Positions 45,590 to 52,045 of a stretch of DNA of 64,000 bases are shown piece by piece. The number at the start of each line of letters is the position of its first letter. The stretch's first letter is position 1. The stretch covers positions 806,001 to 870,000 of the forward strand of contig NZ_AP018795.1 in assembly GCF_003966655.1 (NCBI RefSeq), written 5' to 3'. The position numbers and the translations under genes were made by a program. The notes beneath the pieces are model-generated. The model had not been told where the DNA came from. It saw only the letters and a list, made by a program, of their open reading frames with translations, and ran no database searches. Source of the DNA: Acidithiobacillus ferridurans (lineage in GTDB: Bacteria > Pseudomonadota > Gammaproteobacteria > Acidithiobacillales > Acidithiobacillaceae).

Positions 45590-45906
45590 GCGGAAACTAG
45601 CGAGGGTAGGCCGTCCCTCCGGCACCCCGCTGCAACCCACGCGGGGGAGAGCGGAGGGATGGCACGCTCCTGGGTGCCGGAGCCGCGCCGGCAATCTCCA
45701 CGATAAAAGCGCTATGGCCCATAGCGGTAGAAGCCACAGCAGTACAGGCTGGTTTGCTGGCATTTCTAGTCCACAGCTTGAGAATAAACGGCCAACCCCT
45801 AGCCTTACTTAAATTTTTCAAATACTATGGCCTAGAATGTAGGGATATTTCCAGACGGAGACCGCGCATCGGCAAACGTCCAGAACGGTTCCGACCAGGG
45901 GGAAAC
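45590..45906. other. Gap upstream of rlpA
   Basis: A 317-base gap. It has AT-rich sequence between 45800 and 45850 with a TAGAAT that could be a -10 box of the rlpA promoter, and a short inverted repeat near 45714-45726. I see no convincing gene or terminator. Confidence 0.35.
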
Positions 45907-46986
45907 ATGCGCGTACGGTTCCATCTGCGGCTTTTGAGGCTAGGGGCTTTTGGCCTTGGTGCCGCAGCACTAGCGGGTTGTGCGAGCATGCCTGATCATG
46001 TTGCGGGCCAGCCGCGCAATAGCTACGGTTCGGCCATGGCGGGCTCGGGATATTCTACCGGACAGGACTGCTTTGCCACCGCGCCCAACCTGAATGCCGC
46101 CTACAACCAGCCTTATGAAATCAACGGTCGCTGGTACCATCCGCTCCGCGGTGACGCGGATTTCTCCGAAAATGGCATCGCCTCCTGGTACGACCGGCAG
46201 TCGTCCAGCGACGTGACCGCCATGGGTACCGCCTTCCACGCCCGGCAAATGACCGCCGCGAGCCGGACATTGCCACTACCATCGTGCGTGCGCGTCACCA
46301 ACCTGAAGAACGGGCGCAGCATCGTCGTCCTGGTGAACGATCGCGGCCCCTTCGTGAGCGGCCGTATCATGGATATGTCCTATGGTGCCGCCAGCCGGTT
46401 GGGCATGCTCAGCCGAGGCACCACGCCGGTACATATTCAGGTGATTCCCAGCAGTCCGGCACCTGGCGCACCGCTGCCGAGGGTACTGCCCGTAGTCCAA
46501 CGCACTGTGCCCGGAACGGTACCCGCACCGGTCCCGCAAGCGCCGGCGGCGATACCGGTACCGGCCTATACCGCCCCCTCCAATGCCAATGCCAAGCTGA
46601 CGGCGGTGGTGGACGACACTTTTGCCAGCGGTCCGATTCGCGCCATGCCTGCCGCCGCCCGCACGGTCCCGCCCGCTCCCCTTCCCCCACATAGGGAGGC
46701 CACCGCCCATACTTTGGAACAGTGGCGGCAGACGCCGCGATCCGAGCAAATCTATCTGGAAACAGCAAGCCCCATGCATCTACAGACCGCGGTTCGTGAG
46801 CGCAGCAAGCTGCAGGATTTCGGCATAAGCACCGCGCAGATGGTGCCGGTATCCTCCACGACCGGGGGCGGGCTGTATAAGATCAAGATCGGTCCCATGG
46901 CCCCCACCGCGGCCCCGGAAGACTACGCGGCCAGCCTGCGACGCCTGCGCCTCGGTACCTTTGTGGTCAGCGAGCAGGAGGGTTAA
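45907..46986 (+). CDS. rlpA: Septal ring lytic transglycosylase/lipoprotein RlpA
   Basis: The ATG at 45907 follows GGGGGAAAC. The signal peptide ends AALAGC (lipobox). The central domain is a double-psi beta barrel: GIASWYDRQSSSDVTAMGTAFHARQMTAASRTLPLPSCVRV, then NGRSIVVLVNDRGPFVSGRIMDMSYGAA, which has the conserved Asp in VNDRGP of RlpA and expansin-like folds. A Pro/Ala-rich linker leads to a C-terminal SPOR-like domain (near MHLQTAVRERSKLQDFGI to GLYKIKIGPM) that binds denuded peptidoglycan. RlpA cleaves naked glycan strands at the septum. The protein is 359 residues, normal for the family. Confidence 0.9.
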   Translation: MRVRFHLRLLRLGAFGLGAAALAGCASMPDHVAGQPRNSYGSAMAGSGYSTGQDCFATAPNLNAAYNQPYEINGRWYHPLRGDADFSENGIASWYDRQSSSDVTAMGTAFHARQMTAASRTLPLPSCVRVTNLKNGRSIVVLVNDRGPFVSGRIMDMSYGAASRLGMLSRGTTPVHIQVIPSSPAPGAPLPRVLPVVQRTVPGTVPAPVPQAPAAIPVPAYTAPSNANAKLTAVVDDTFASGPIRAMPAAARTVPPAPLPPHREATAHTLEQWRQTPRSEQIYLETASPMHLQTAVRERSKLQDFGISTAQMVPVSSTTGGGLYKIKIGPMAPTAAPEDYAASLRRLRLGTFVVSEQEG

Positions 46987-47275
46987 AGGCATCGGTGCTC
47001 AGCCTGCGCGGGGGTGGTTCCCTCCGTTCGCCGAGAATGGCCCAGACAATCAGCGCGATCCAGGCGATGCCCGACCAGCCGAGCACGATGTTCAATATCA
47101 GCACCCACAGAAAATGCTCATGGTGGCGCGCGGCAGCGATGATGCTGGGGACAAAATAGATCAACAGACCGAGTATGGCAGCCAGCAGCCATACCACCGT
47201 GTGCAAAAATAGCGCCGCAATACCCAGTGCAATCAAGGCGAATATGGCAATGCTTATGGCGATCAACGCACTCAA
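46967..47275 (-). CDS. Superinfection-immunity-like small membrane protein
   Basis: The product has hydrophobic helices ISIAIFALIALGIAALFLHTVVWLLAAILGLLIYFVP and then ARHHEHFLWVLILNIVLGWSGIAWIALIVWAI, the pattern of the T4-type superinfection-immunity family (two helices around a His-rich loop, then GW). The start is a TTG overlapping the TGA of the preceding channel gene (TTGA). It overlaps the rlpA 3' end by 20 bases. In bacteria the family is common and not necessarily linked to phage. Confidence 0.7.
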   Translation of the reverse strand: MSALIAISIAIFALIALGIAALFLHTVVWLLAAILGLLIYFVPSIIAAARHHEHFLWVLILNIVLGWSGIAWIALIVWAILGERREPPPRRLSTDAFNPPAR

Positions 47276-48519
47276 GTCTCAGCTCCTTCCGCCTTCGCGG
47301 TAAACAATTTACTGATAATGGCATCTCCTGCCAGACTCTCACCGCTCAGGGCCAGCGCCAGCAGTTCCCCGCCCAACACTTCCGGAGAGATGATGAGATC
47401 GGCCCCGATCTGTCGCAGACGTTCCAGATGCTTACCGTTCTGAACCGCCGCCACGGTTTTCCCGGGAACACCCAACTCTCTCGCCGCGAGAATGATAAAG
47501 GCATTTTCACTGTCATTCGCCCGCAATGCGAGCACTCCCAGGGCATACTGGGCTCCCGCTCTGCGCAATACATCCAGGTCCGTTGCATCACCGATCATGA
47601 GATCTTCCGTGGCCATCCACTGTCGCTCCGGTAGCACGGACATCAGCACCAGCGCCGACAAATGCCTGGCGCGCAGGGCGCGGTAGGTATTCTGGGCCAA
47701 CGCATTATCCCCGATGATCAGGTAGTGACTACGGTAACTGCGCCGTTTCTCTCCCATGAGCAGGCGCTGCATCCTGCCGTTCAGCAACGGTACGACAACC
47801 GCGGAAATAGAGGTTGCGAAAACGGTGATGCCCAGGATGATGATGGAGATGACAAAAATCCGGGCGTCTTCGCTTTTCGGCACGATATCTCCATACCCGA
47901 CGGTGGACATGGTAACCACGGAGAAATACAGGGCATCCACCAGATTCATGATAGGCGGCGAAAAGCCTGCGCCCAGCACGTAACTGCCCAGTACCGCGTA
48001 ACTCATCAGCAGCAAAATGGATATCGCTGCAAACAGGGTTCCCGCAGCCACGCTCGAATGCGCAAAATGGCGCCGAAACACCAGCAGCGCTATCAGGATC
48101 GCCGCATTGTAGGCAACGACGCCGCTCCACACAAAACCGTAGTGGTGCAGCAACATGGCCAGCATCGCGGCCGCCAATATCAGAGTAATGGCCCAGGAGA
48201 AGCGGGAGCGGAACAATAACCCGATGGCCATCAGCAACAGGACGATACCGACAATCGCCTCGGGTACCGTGCCCAGTGCCGATAAGAGCGGGGCCTGGGT
48301 CAGGCTGGCGGAGGGGGCAAGGCCTGCCAGCGCCGGAAAGATCCGGGTCAGGCGCGGCAAGGCATTCAGGATCGCCAGCCCCCCCAACAGCCCAACGGCC
48401 AGCGCCATCGGAATCTGTGGAAACCAGACATCCAGATTCAATACGACACGCGCCTTGGCCACGAAGCGAAAAAACCGCTGTCGCAGTGACCATCTCATCA
48501 CATCGGGGATTCTGATCAT
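47272..48519 (-). CDS. Voltage-gated-type potassium channel with TrkA-N domain
   Basis: The 415-residue protein has several N-terminal helices, then the pore NLVDALYFSVVTMSTVGYGDIVPKS with selectivity filter TVGYGD, an S6 helix (FVISIIILGITVFATSISAVVVPLL) and a cytoplasmic RCK/TrkA-N domain (SHYLIIGDNALAQNTYRAL, EDLMIGDATDLDVLRRAGAQYALGVLALR). This resembles Kch. It controls potassium flux and so membrane potential and pH homeostasis. The start at 48519 has AAGG nine bases upstream. The next gene is coupled by TTGA. Confidence 0.87.
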   Translation of the reverse strand: MIRIPDVMRWSLRQRFFRFVAKARVVLNLDVWFPQIPMALAVGLLGGLAILNALPRLTRIFPALAGLAPSASLTQAPLLSALGTVPEAIVGIVLLLMAIGLLFRSRFSWAITLILAAAMLAMLLHHYGFVWSGVVAYNAAILIALLVFRRHFAHSSVAAGTLFAAISILLLMSYAVLGSYVLGAGFSPPIMNLVDALYFSVVTMSTVGYGDIVPKSEDARIFVISIIILGITVFATSISAVVVPLLNGRMQRLLMGEKRRSYRSHYLIIGDNALAQNTYRALRARHLSALVLMSVLPERQWMATEDLMIGDATDLDVLRRAGAQYALGVLALRANDSENAFIILAARELGVPGKTVAAVQNGKHLERLRQIGADLIISPEVLGGELLALALSGESLAGDAIISKLFTAKAEGAET

Positions 48520-48699
48520 GGACAGACCCTTACTTTCGGAGGCCGGACACTGCTCAGCCCAAACATCGTCCGTACGGAACTGTAGCATCTGCGGATCGCT
48601 GCAGCGACCTATGGCTGGCGCAGCACCCTGTGCATGCCGGCGCGAAGAACCGTCAGCTTTGGATTTCCAGGGGTGTGGACACGCCCGACGGCACGGAGA

Positions 48700-49866
48700 T
48701 CACAGCCAGGATTCTCCTTCGTGTAACAGGCGGGTGAACCATCCCGCCGGCTGCACGGCGCTCCGTGCAACCACCGGCACACTCTGCAGGACATGGCCGT
48801 GCCAACGGACAGACAGGGTACCGATGGGTGCACCGGCGCGAATCGGCGCCTTGAGACCGGCGGCGGGAATAAACCGCGTGTGCAGCCCGACACCCTGCTG
48901 TTTGGGTTCAGACACCACGACGGCGCGGGTGGTCACCCCCTCCATCACTTCCGGACTCCAGTCCACATGACGGACTTGTGCGACTACCTGTCCGGCCTTA
49001 TACAATGGAAGGTTCTGCCAGCCGTTCCAGCCATAATCCAGCAGCGCGCTCGCATCACTGCCCGCCGCACTGCGTGAAGGCGCCCCCAGCACGACGGCCA
49101 CCAGGGTGCGTCCGCCGCGGGTCGCGCTGACATCCAGATCCCAACTGTTCTTTGCCGCCAGGCCGACACCCAGACCATTGATGTTTTCCTGACCGGCCAG
49201 CGGGTTGTAGTTGTACTGGGTGATATGGTTGTAAGTGTAAGAGACCTTCCCCGCCACCTGTAACACCTGCGGATACGCCTGGATCAAGTGTTTCGAGAGT
49301 CGCGCGACATCCAGCGCTGTACTGGTCTGGCCCGGCTGGGGCAAACCATCGGGGTTGGTAAAGTGGGTGTGTTGCAGCCCCATCGCCGCCGCGTCGTGAT
49401 TCATCAGATCGACGAAACCACCGACGCTGCCGGCCACCGTTTGGGCGATGGCGACAGCCGCATCATTCCCCCCGTCAATCAACAGACCATGCTCCAGTTG
49501 GCTCATGGTCACCGGCAGGTGGGGCTGAATAAACATGCGCGAACCCTGCGCATGCCAGGCCTCGTTGGAGACATGAACCCGCCGCTGCGGCGGCACCAGT
49601 CCCTGCTTTTCCGCCTGATACATGACGTAGGCCGTCATTAACTTGACCAGCCCGGAAGGGTTGAGGGGTTTTTCGGCGTTCTCCGCCACCAGTACCTGAC
49701 CGCTGTTCACATCCAGGAGAACCGCGCCCTGTATGCCCGTCAGTTGGGGCGCCGGCATGGGTGGCGGCGGGGGCAGGGTTGGCAAGGGGGGTAAATTCGG
49801 GGTCGCCGCGTTGGCGCCCCCCCACACAAGCAGCGCCACGAGGGCCAGAATGTTTGGCGATTTCAT
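48700..49866 (-). CDS. D-alanyl-D-alanine carboxypeptidase (PBP5/DacC) homologue without active-site motifs
   Basis: The overall layout is PBP5/6-like: signal peptide ending GGANA, a Pro-rich linker, the peptidase S11 fold (AVLLDVNSGQVLVAENAEKPLNP...) and a C-terminal beta domain with a terminal amphipathic helix (AGWFTRLLHEGESWL). The motif regions are altered: SLTK is GLVK at 72-75, SGN is GGN at 132-134, and KTG is GVG at 233-235 (INGLGVGLA, where PBP5 has GLKTGHT). Catalytic Ser and both Lys-containing motifs are therefore not conserved; Lys75 remains. The surrounding structure is intact (e.g. THFTNPDGLPQPGQTSTALDVARL). It is probably a non-catalytic peptidoglycan-binding homologue. The family assignment is firm; enzyme activity is unlikely. 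Confidence 0.85.
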   Translation of the reverse strand: MKSPNILALVALLVWGGANAATPNLPPLPTLPPPPPMPAPQLTGIQGAVLLDVNSGQVLVAENAEKPLNPSGLVKLMTAYVMYQAEKQGLVPPQRRVHVSNEAWHAQGSRMFIQPHLPVTMSQLEHGLLIDGGNDAAVAIAQTVAGSVGGFVDLMNHDAAAMGLQHTHFTNPDGLPQPGQTSTALDVARLSKHLIQAYPQVLQVAGKVSYTYNHITQYNYNPLAGQENINGLGVGLAAKNSWDLDVSATRGGRTLVAVVLGAPSRSAAGSDASALLDYGWNGWQNLPLYKAGQVVAQVRHVDWSPEVMEGVTTRAVVVSEPKQQGVGLHTRFIPAAGLKAPIRAGAPIGTLSVRWHGHVLQSVPVVARSAVQPAGWFTRLLHEGESWL

Positions 49867-49976: not shown

Positions 49977-51596
49977 TCAGCTACCCCGGCGCTGCAGATA
50001 GCGCTGCAGCAAAGCGGCAGTCGAGGCGTCGTGGGGATGGCGGGCCGTACTCCGCAGTTCCGCCACGATCCGCTGCGCCAACACCTTGCCCAACTCCACG
50101 CCCCACTGATCAAACGAGTCGATACCCCAGATAATCCCCTGGGTAAAGACGCTGTGCTCGTAAAGTGCCACGAGCGCCCCCAGAGTATGGGGGTCGAGGC
50201 GGTCCCCCAGAAGGACGCTGCTGGGCCGGTTGCCGGGGAAAACGCGGAATGGCACCAACGCCTCGGCCACCCCTTCGGCACGCAATTCCTCCGCCGCCTT
50301 GCCAAAGGCCAGCGCCTCGGCCTGGGCGATGAGGTTAGCCATCAGCAACTCGTGCTGCTCGGCCAACGGACTGAGCGGCTGACAAAAGCCAATGAAATCA
50401 CAGGGAATCAGTCGCGTACCCTGATGAATCAATTGATAGAAGGAATGCTGCCCGTCGGTGCCGGGCTCACCCCAGATAATGGCGCCCGTATCGACGGTAA
50501 CCGGGTGACCATCCTCATCCACGCCCTTGCCGTTGCTTTCCATCTGCAGTTGCTGAAGATAAGCGGGGAAACGCGCCAGATCATGGGCATAGGGCAATAT
50601 GGCCTGGGTCTGCGCATCCCAGAAATTGTTATACCAGAGCGCCAGCAGGCCCATGAGCACCGGCAGGTTCTGTTCCAGGGGCGCCGTCTGAAAGTGGTTA
50701 TCCATGGCATGGAAGCCCGCCAGCATGGCGGTGAAATGTTCCACCCCCACCCCCAGCATGGTGGACAGGCCGATGGCCGAATCCATGGAATAACGTCCGC
50801 CTACCCAATCCCAGAAACCGAACATGTGTCCGGTATCCATCCCGAAGGCCTTGACAGCTTCGACATTGGTGGACACGGCGACGAAGTGCCGGGCCACGGC
50901 CGCCTCGCCCAGGGCCGAGGTAACCCAATAGCGGGCCTGTTGGGCGTTGGTCATGGTCTCCAGGGTGGTGAAGGTTTTGGAAGAGACGATGAACAGGGTT
51001 TCGGCGGGGTCCAGATGCGCCGTAACGTCGGTAAAAGTCGCGCCATCCACATTGGCGACAAAACCCAGCTCCATGCCTGGGTGACGATACGGGCGCAGCG
51101 CCTTCCAGGCCATTTCCGGCCCCAGGTAGGAGCCACCAATCCCAATATTGATGATCTTGCGAATGGGCTGACCGGTCGCCCCCCGCCAGGTGCCATCGTG
51201 GATGGATCGGGTGAAGGCGGCCATGTGGTCCAGTACCTTATGGACTTCTGGCACCACATCCACCCCCGCCGTGCGCATGACATGGCCTTTGGGTGCGCGC
51301 AGAGCCACATGAAAAGCCGCCCGCCCCTCCGTGCGATTGATCCGTTCGCCCGCGAACATCGCCGCCCGGCGTTCTTCCAGGTGCCGCGCCCGCGCCAGGG
51401 TGATCAGCAGACGCAAGGTCTCCGGGTTGATGAGGTGTTTGGAATAATCGAGGTAAAGGCCGCAGGCCTCGGCGGAAAAATTCCGGGCGCGCTGCGGGTC
51501 GTCCTGAAAGAGCTGACGCAGGGTCACGCCCTCCCAACTTTGCCGATGCTGCTGTAAATCCCGCCAGACGGATGAGGTATTCAAGGGTGTGGACAC
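49977..51596 (-). CDS. pgi: Glucose-6-phosphate isomerase
   Basis: The start is the GTG at 51596, with AAGGAG seven bases upstream, giving 539 residues, a normal Pgi length. Landmarks are [83 protein letters not shown], the [31 protein letters not shown] block containing the catalytic Glu/His, and [12 protein letters not shown] near the C-terminus. It interconverts glucose-6-phosphate and fructose-6-phosphate. The DacC-like gene lies 110 bases downstream on the same strand; co-transcription is possible. Confidence 0.96.
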
Positions 51597-52045
51597 GAAA
51601 AAACTCCTTGCGCAAAACGGGACGGACGCGGAAAAGTGCTGACCCAAGAGTAGGCAAGGCGCGTCTCCACTGCAAGGGCAGCGGTTTTGCACCGAAAAAA
51701 TTCGCGGCATCATAGCATTCAGGCAATGGCTTCGTGCCGCATACCGCCTTCGCCTCCGCGCCTGCGCCTGCGCCGATATTTCCTGCCCTGTCCAGTTTCA
51801 CCAGTTTATCGTAATATTCATTCTTTACGATTTAATGTGTGAGAAAATTTGGCTAGTTAGTAGATCAACCTGTTTTTGGGCGTTTTTTGAAAAATCGGCT
51901 GAGCCGCTTATACTGCCAGTCTTTGTTGGTCCGGAACCTCTACTCGCCTTGATTGTTGCCTCATTACCCGCCGTTTCGCGCGATAGCTCATCCTGGTTTT
52001 CCGAGTCGCCGCCTGACGCCCGTGTAACTCCTCGGGGATCTGCCC
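51597..52045. other. Intergenic region between pgi and the ArnT-like gene
   Basis: A 449-base gap between divergent genes. It is more AT-rich from about 51800 to 51900 (several T runs), where promoters for the downstream gene probably lie, but no clear -35/-10 pair or other structure was found. No gene of convincing quality is visible. Confidence 0.4.

Follow-up and report, generated by a model that had tools for sequence, protein, structure and literature searches.

A conserved PBP5-type protein of the Acidithiobacillaceae with altered catalytic motifs, linked to a class A penicillin-binding protein gene

Results

The locus and the encoded protein

The window (i.e., the whole 64,000-nucleotide stretch of Acidithiobacillus ferridurans DNA that was analysed) contains, at 48700-49866 on the minus strand, a gene with an ATG start and an unbroken translation of 388 residues. 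The initial annotation had described an intact frame of this length without naming a strand; the frame holds on the minus strand, and the plus-strand frame over the same interval contains stops and is not open. The features referred to below are the following, with their basis in brackets.

48700..49866, minus strand: putative pseudo-D,D-carboxypeptidase of the S11/PBP5 type, 388 aa, all three catalytic motifs altered (translation, Pfam, orthologs, model)
49807..49866, minus strand: predicted signal peptide, residues 1-20 (by eye; a low-confidence stretch of the model)
49744..49806, minus strand: proline-rich linker, residues 21-41 (by eye)
49642..49653, minus strand: GLVK, residues 72-75, at the SxxK site, with Lys75 retained and Ser71 one place before (ortholog alignment)
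49465..49473, minus strand: GGN, residues 132-134, at the SGN site (ortholog alignment)
49162..49170, minus strand: GVG, residues 233-235, at the KTG site (ortholog alignment)
48751..49017, minus strand: PBP5 C-terminal beta domain, residues 284-372 (PF07943 and predicted model)
48706..48741, minus strand: C-terminal helix, residues 376-387, a predicted PBP5-like membrane anchor of modest amphipathy (model and hydrophobic moment)
49977..51713, minus strand: pgi, the upstream neighbour (window annotation; adjacent in 24 of 27 pseudoenzyme-bearing genomes)

The protein, referred to as the pseudoenzyme from here on, belongs to the S11/PBP5-type fold family on both of its domains: Peptidase_S11 is matched with an E-value of 2e-53 (181.8 bits against a curated Pfam cut-off of 27.6), and PBP5_C (PF07943) with an E-value of 1.5e-7 (31.9 bits against 21.2). 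It lies far under all cut-offs of the NCBIfam DacA/DacC/DacD-type equivalogs, the best score being 195.8 bits versus 610 for DacD, and its sequence matches in the PDB are headed by PBP5/PBP6-type carboxypeptidases. No promoter-like sites were found in the two stretches scanned, and terminator-like sites in these stretches were near chance level, with none on the gene's own strand.

Predicted structure

The structure model, built from a 21-row alignment, presents a pLDDT of 84.0 and a pTM of 0.82, with low values for residues 1-25. Its best PDB match is Pseudomonas aeruginosa PBP5 (4k91_B), with a Z-score of 42.0 and an rmsd of 1.9 over 341 residues; comparison with E. coli PBP6 yielded a Z-score of about 41, and with E. 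coli PBP5 entries Z-scores of 35-40. The PBP5-like fold that the initial annotation had proposed, to be checked by exactly such a comparison, is thereby borne out at the level of a predicted model, and the C-terminal beta domain it also described is present both as a PF07943 match over the cut-off and in the model. A PBP5 fold throughout the protein is predicted with confidence. The amphipathy of the C-terminal helix is modest, its hydrophobic moment being matched by 7 to 61 of 300 tail shuffles among 26 orthologs.

Orthologs and catalytic motifs

Orthologs were found in 27 of the 29 Acidithiobacillaceae genomes searched (the family assignment rests on named relatives), spanning four genera at 57-100% identity. 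Among the matches listed, the closest named relative carrying one is A. ferruginosus, at 94% protein identity. The two genomes that have none are incomplete (G019, 71% complete, and G024, 61% complete). A class-wide search covered 143 genomes, of which 126 had a match at an E-value of 1e-40 or better, and loci were taken for roughly 30 of those that matched best. When the first motif alone was searched for as a degenerate DNA pattern (P-S-G-L-V-K-x-M-T and a few near spellings), one of 398 phylum-wide genomes matched, the window's own, in a draw that held no other genome of the family.

The columns of SxxK, SGN and KTG read G72-L-V-K75, G132-G-N134 and G233-V-G235 in the window protein. The proposed loss of all three catalytic motifs was borne out, and the altered residues, for which conservation among relatives had been suggested as a check, are identical (SGLVK, GGN, GVG) in all 27 orthologs; none of the motifs of an active S11 D,D-carboxypeptidase (SxxK, SxN, KTG) occurs in any of them. 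The Thr of KTG is also replaced in all 27, and the Thr at position 237 has been replaced too. The motifs are gutted rather than erased, with K75 and N134 retained. By comparison, all 51 other PBP5-type sequences in the alignment, sister paralogs included, present S, S, K and T at the same columns; these rows were chosen as best hits, and dead S11 proteins could exist elsewhere. Twelve sites are fixed or nearly so within each group (i.e., pseudoenzymes and others) yet differ between the groups, and eight of these (71, 72, 74, 129, 132, 233, 234 and 237) lie in the motifs or at most three residues away.

In E. coli PBP5, a Gly in place of the active-site Ser44 removes both penicillin binding and carboxypeptidase activity, as stated with reference to earlier work in the available text of PMC2909392. 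Judging from its sequence, the pseudoenzyme is very probably a non-catalytic protein, and we infer that it neither acylates beta-lactams nor cuts pentapeptides. A relocated active site was also considered, given that Ser71 sits one residue ahead of the usual nucleophile position and stands i/i+4 to Lys75: Ser71 would serve as the nucleophile of a remodelled acyl-enzyme hydrolase with another specificity. Both residues are invariant in the 27 orthologs, and column 71 is Ala in all 51 motif-intact relatives. However, replacement of the second-motif Ser, of the Lys and Thr of KTG and of Thr at 237 leaves no known handling of the proton or carboxylate, and a helix is predicted to start at residue 71, so that this Ser probably faces differently. 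We consider this alternative very unlikely.

Selection on the altered residues

All four Gly codons are present at each of G72, G132 and G233 among 25 of the 27 sequences (the truncated L039 and L049, which has unknown bases, were omitted from the counts), and pairwise dN/dS ranges from 0.06 to 0.45 in 14 ortholog pairs. Since synonymous codons differ at the altered sites, the residues are kept by selection rather than by recency. The altered motifs are conserved under purifying selection within an orthologous clade, i.e., the pattern of a dedicated pseudoenzyme. These results agree with the earlier suggestions that the gene is maintained and that it encodes a pseudo-enzyme: the fold is kept, the motifs are identically replaced, selection is purifying, and motif-intact paralogs exist in the same family.

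Chance or a sequencing slip as the source of the altered motifs is ruled out by identical motifs with differing synonymous codons. That the gene is a pseudogene in early decay, or a product of sequencing error, is extremely improbable: one draft ortholog (G013/L039) has an in-frame stop and a frame break, which would fit decay, but the motif identity, the varied codons and a dN/dS below 0.5 in 14 of 14 pairs stand against it. The lesions of that ortholog (L039/L010, G013:C128:8169-9337), a TAG in frame and a break of the frame around residues 54-59, may be an error of the draft assembly.

Origin among S11 paralogs

In a tree of 79 rows, the 27 pseudoenzymes cluster as a single clade (support 100/100), whose stem measures 1.16 changes per site. 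Grouped with it are the two clades of motif-intact paralogs and a single sequence that belongs to a different gammaproteobacterial family. DacA1-like matches at 43-48% identity (one partial) were obtained from all 29 family genomes, and the nine such proteins read all have SLTK, SGN and KTG. A further PBP5-type paralog, identified by score, occurs in 16 of the 29 genomes, and the nine copies read are likewise motif-intact. The window's genome (2.92 Mb, one contig) has three matched S11 genes; a shorter PBP7-like protein in this genome (L003) has SITK, SGN and KSG. In each of the two sister-family genomes (Thermithiobacillaceae by inference), a single S11 match was found at an E-value of 1e-10, and it is motif-intact. 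At three loci (L053, L054 and L055), about 8-12 kb separate the pseudoenzyme from a third PBP5-type paralog, which is motif-intact.

The history to which these sequences point is a duplication of a PBP5-type carboxypeptidase on the Acidithiobacillaceae stem, followed by fast change and then by conservation.

Linkage to pgi and to a class A PBP

As the initial annotation had noted, pgi adjoins the gene: in the window it is the immediate upstream neighbour in the same orientation, as it is in 24 of 27 genomes overall. In the remaining three, the contig ends (two genomes) or other genes are found (G020, locus L020). Immediately downstream of the pseudoenzyme, A. montserratensis (L012), Acidithiobacillus sp. 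YTS05 (L017) and A. sulfuriphilus (L020) have a gene for an 826-residue class A PBP; the L012 copy, the one scanned, has Transgly, Transpeptidase and OB domains and belongs to the PBP1A family. We refer to this adjacent duplicate class A PBP as PonA2, a name coined here, and searched the 29 genomes with it.

Of the 27 pseudoenzyme genomes, 20 have PonA2 as the gene directly downstream, in the same orientation. Only one of the 21 genomes with a PonA2-like gene (G019) departs from this arrangement: its contig ends inside that gene, and the pseudoenzyme may therefore simply be absent from the assembly. Apart from this cut contig, no PonA2-like match away from the pseudoenzyme was found in the 29 genomes. 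The spacing between the two genes, measured between match ends rather than start codons, is 49-89 bp in 19 genomes and 267 in the fragmented G027, where the pseudoenzyme match stops early. Transpeptidase motifs SxxK, SxN and KTG were found in 18 of the 19 PonA2 copies read, the 19th (G026) being split between frames.

All genomes but G024, which has no PonA2 match either, also have a separate PBP1A match at another place (28 of 29 genomes, 63-69% identity); in G000, G011 and G019 this match is broken or cut. PonA2 and PBP1A form sister clades within the family, with SH-aLRT values of 81 and 97 in a quick tree that gave long-branch warnings and in which the PonA2 support of 81 is below the program's mark for a firm branch. 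The class A PBP of the sister family, of which each of the two genomes has one match at the cut-offs used, falls outside. Given this topology and the single outside copy, the duplications that produced the pseudoenzyme and PonA2 are placed on one and the same stem. The branch leading to both Acidithiobacillaceae class A PBPs is itself long (1.88 changes per site), which implies that the synthase changed much before it was duplicated.

Beyond the block of pgi, pseudoenzyme and PonA2, the surroundings differ among the three loci read by eye. This bears on the possibility that the protein has a structural or shape role in the acid-exposed envelope, tied to neither a synthase nor stem peptides, and that its neighbours are kept because the pgi block is old. 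The Acidithiobacillaceae are a family of acidophiles, the searches made showed the protein in no other family, and the pgi adjacency and the retention of the gene after PonA2 loss (see below) would suit such a role. However, PonA2 remains adjacent in nearly every genome that has it despite the differing surroundings, and G020, whose upstream region is present without pgi, still keeps its PonA2 neighbour; we regard a purely structural role as quite unlikely.

Two further genes were observed near the locus or in the window's genome. An RlpA-like gene (by eye) lies at 45754-46986 on the plus strand of the window, about 1.7 kb from the pseudoenzyme, and was seen near it only in close relatives, many of the loci being too short to show it; in E. 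coli, rlpA adjoins dacA. The only PBP1A-type match of the window's genome at an E-value of 1e-20 or better (G000:C1:350020-352324) is divided over two frames, with the break falling a little ahead of KTG (L138 1425-3536 and 3439-3975). The relative G006 has it intact in a single frame of 851 residues, and the split is either a sequencing error or a real frameshift.

Loss of PonA2 and evolutionary rate

PonA2 is absent and the pseudoenzyme kept, motifs included, in seven of the 27 genomes (G000, which is the window's, G006, G007, G003, G004, G013 and G023), corresponding to at least four losses on the pseudoenzyme tree if PonA2 was never regained. Because the window's lineage has no adjacent synthase gene, the link to PonA2 is hidden from the window alone. 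In the place of PonA2, the window has a K+-channel-like gene at 47272-48588 on the minus strand (TVGYGD filter, by eye), seen only there and in close relatives among the loci fetched, many of them short. The downstream genes of the other PonA2-less loci, named by eye, are GST-like (L006, L008), LysR-like (L010) and antiporter-like (L048).

The ratio of pseudoenzyme to pgi substitutions is 1.16 on branches with PonA2 versus 2.17 on those without, with a Fisher p of 0.0004 from approximate counts (branch length times sites). This analysis used 23 of the 27 genomes, leaving out the three without pgi in the locus and L049, which has unknown bases; the PonA2-less G023 lineage is the root of the rate tree, and its own branch is uncounted. 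The corresponding dN ratios are 0.70-1.51 in eight pairs with PonA2, 1.41-3.03 in four pairs without, and 1.99-4.09 in three mixed pairs. Within the ferrooxidans clade, the contrast is only 2.17 without PonA2 versus 1.48 with it (p = 0.11), so the shift in rate is not separable from a clade effect. A relaxed constraint on the pseudoenzyme after PonA2 loss is suggestive only.

Discussion

A possible role in class A PBP synthesis

Overall, the best explanation is a family-wide pseudoenzyme, born by duplication, that assists class A PBP synthesis as a partner without catalysis, with a probability of roughly 0.55. The initial annotation had suggested that the protein may bind peptidoglycan or regulate true carboxypeptidases or transpeptidases; the gene linkage is what makes class A PBPs, which are glycosyltransferase-transpeptidases, the likely class of partner. 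Taken together with the shared origin and the common pathway, this linkage gives the partner role by itself about even odds. The protein would be exported to the periplasm and attached to the periplasmic face of the inner membrane by its C-terminal helix, and its altered groove or surface would bind either stem peptides in newly made peptidoglycan or the synthase itself. Such binding could steer or regulate the synthase, or keep pentapeptide donors from the true carboxypeptidase. The first partner was probably PonA2, and in the lineages without it, the window's included, the protein may work with the remaining PBP1A.

Among the results that limit this reading is that adjacency to pgi is no less widespread than adjacency to PonA2 (24 versus 20 of 27 genomes), which counts against a partner; another is that PonA2 is not the pseudoenzyme's only reason to exist, given the seven genomes that keep one without the other. 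A single fixed partner is disfavoured by this survival, and so is a simple replacement of LpoA, given that 29 of the 31 genomes of the order have an LpoA-type activator (PF04348). The replacement of LpoA was rejected as a simple idea on that count, there being no evident activator vacancy. The two genomes missing a PF04348 match are G019 and G020, the latter 99% complete and with its pseudoenzyme-PonA2 pair kept. For LpoB (PF13036), no match over the cut-off was found in the 31 genomes, six of which have weak matches below it.

An alternative in which the synthase is not contacted directly is that the protein shields pentapeptides as a decoy, binding D-Ala-D-Ala stems uncut and guarding them from active DacA. 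The groove fold, Lys75 and Asn134 are kept, and the DacA1-like protein from which stems would need guarding is matched in every family genome and motif-intact wherever read. A precedent may be E. coli PBP6a, which has low in vitro activity and seems to protect pentapeptides from other carboxypeptidases, according to the available text of PMC4916385. Affinity for D-Ala-D-Ala is nevertheless made doubtful by the additional loss of the second-motif Ser and of the Lys and Thr of KTG. These are substrate-holding residues. Moreover, PBP5(S44G) no longer localizes to midcell, an effect that its authors put down to a loss of interaction with the substrate in the available text of PMC2909392. We thus consider a shield unlikely.

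A bolder form of the partner reading is that the protein represents a new kind of synthase partner, in which a PBP5 fold stripped of catalysis and seated at the inner membrane regulates a class A PBP, having arisen with the duplicate synthase as a gene pair on the stem of an extreme-acidophile family and later passed to PBP1A. We put this forward tentatively, as a possibility short of even odds.

In the literature, the vesicle proteins of Fervidacidithiobacillus caldus include "DacC and MrcA" according to the available text of PMC10853474, where it is not told which S11 protein is meant. No gene-neighbour precedent was found in the available part of PMC7267771, and nothing relevant in that of PMC3759942.

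Comparison with known systems

The pseudoenzyme resembles PBP5 (DacA) of E. coli and P. aeruginosa in both domains, the export signal, the C-terminal helix and the predicted fold (Z-scores of 35-42), but differs in having SxxK, SGN and KTG all replaced and in forming its own clade. The predicted fold is shared with E. coli PBP6a (DacC) at a Z-score of about 41; PBP6, however, acylates, an ampicillin acyl-enzyme complex being in the PDB (3ita). The engineered PBP5(S44G) has the same Ser-to-Gly change at the nucleophile and is reported as inactive and penicillin-blind in the available text of PMC2909392, yet it is a single mutant made in the laboratory, whose other two motifs are unchanged. The low-pH specialist carboxypeptidase of E. 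coli is PBP6b, according to the available text of PMC4916385.

With LpoA, LpoB and LpoP the analogy is only hypothetical, i.e., that of a non-catalytic partner of a class A PBP, and the coexistence of LpoA-type genes with the pseudoenzyme family sets the two apart. The Lpo proteins are outer-membrane lipoproteins with folds other than that of PBP5, and LpoP is described as outer membrane-localized in the source text available. PBP2B is a division PBP of a class other than PBP5. Its inactive form in B. subtilis, which still supports division according to the available text of PMC5656894, offers a precedent for a structural PBP role without catalysis, although as a laboratory mutant.

Significance

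S11 carboxypeptidases are among the best-studied penicillin-binding proteins. In the open-licence literature searched (titles and the starts of abstracts, among the matches listed), no natural S11 pseudoenzyme is described; the present case is one of an enzyme that lost its catalysis and took on another use, from a family with no such member found described in that literature. The results suggest that the label "D-alanyl-D-alanine carboxypeptidase", if assigned automatically, would misdescribe the pseudoenzyme, one of three S11 genes matched in the window's genome, and its orthologs. Given a clade in which all three motifs were replaced and then fixed, one may ask what the body of PBP5 does besides catalysis, and the close linkage to the gene of a family-specific class A PBP opens the regulator hypothesis to direct tests, in bacteria that are culturable and non-pathogenic and have a cell wall facing strong acid.
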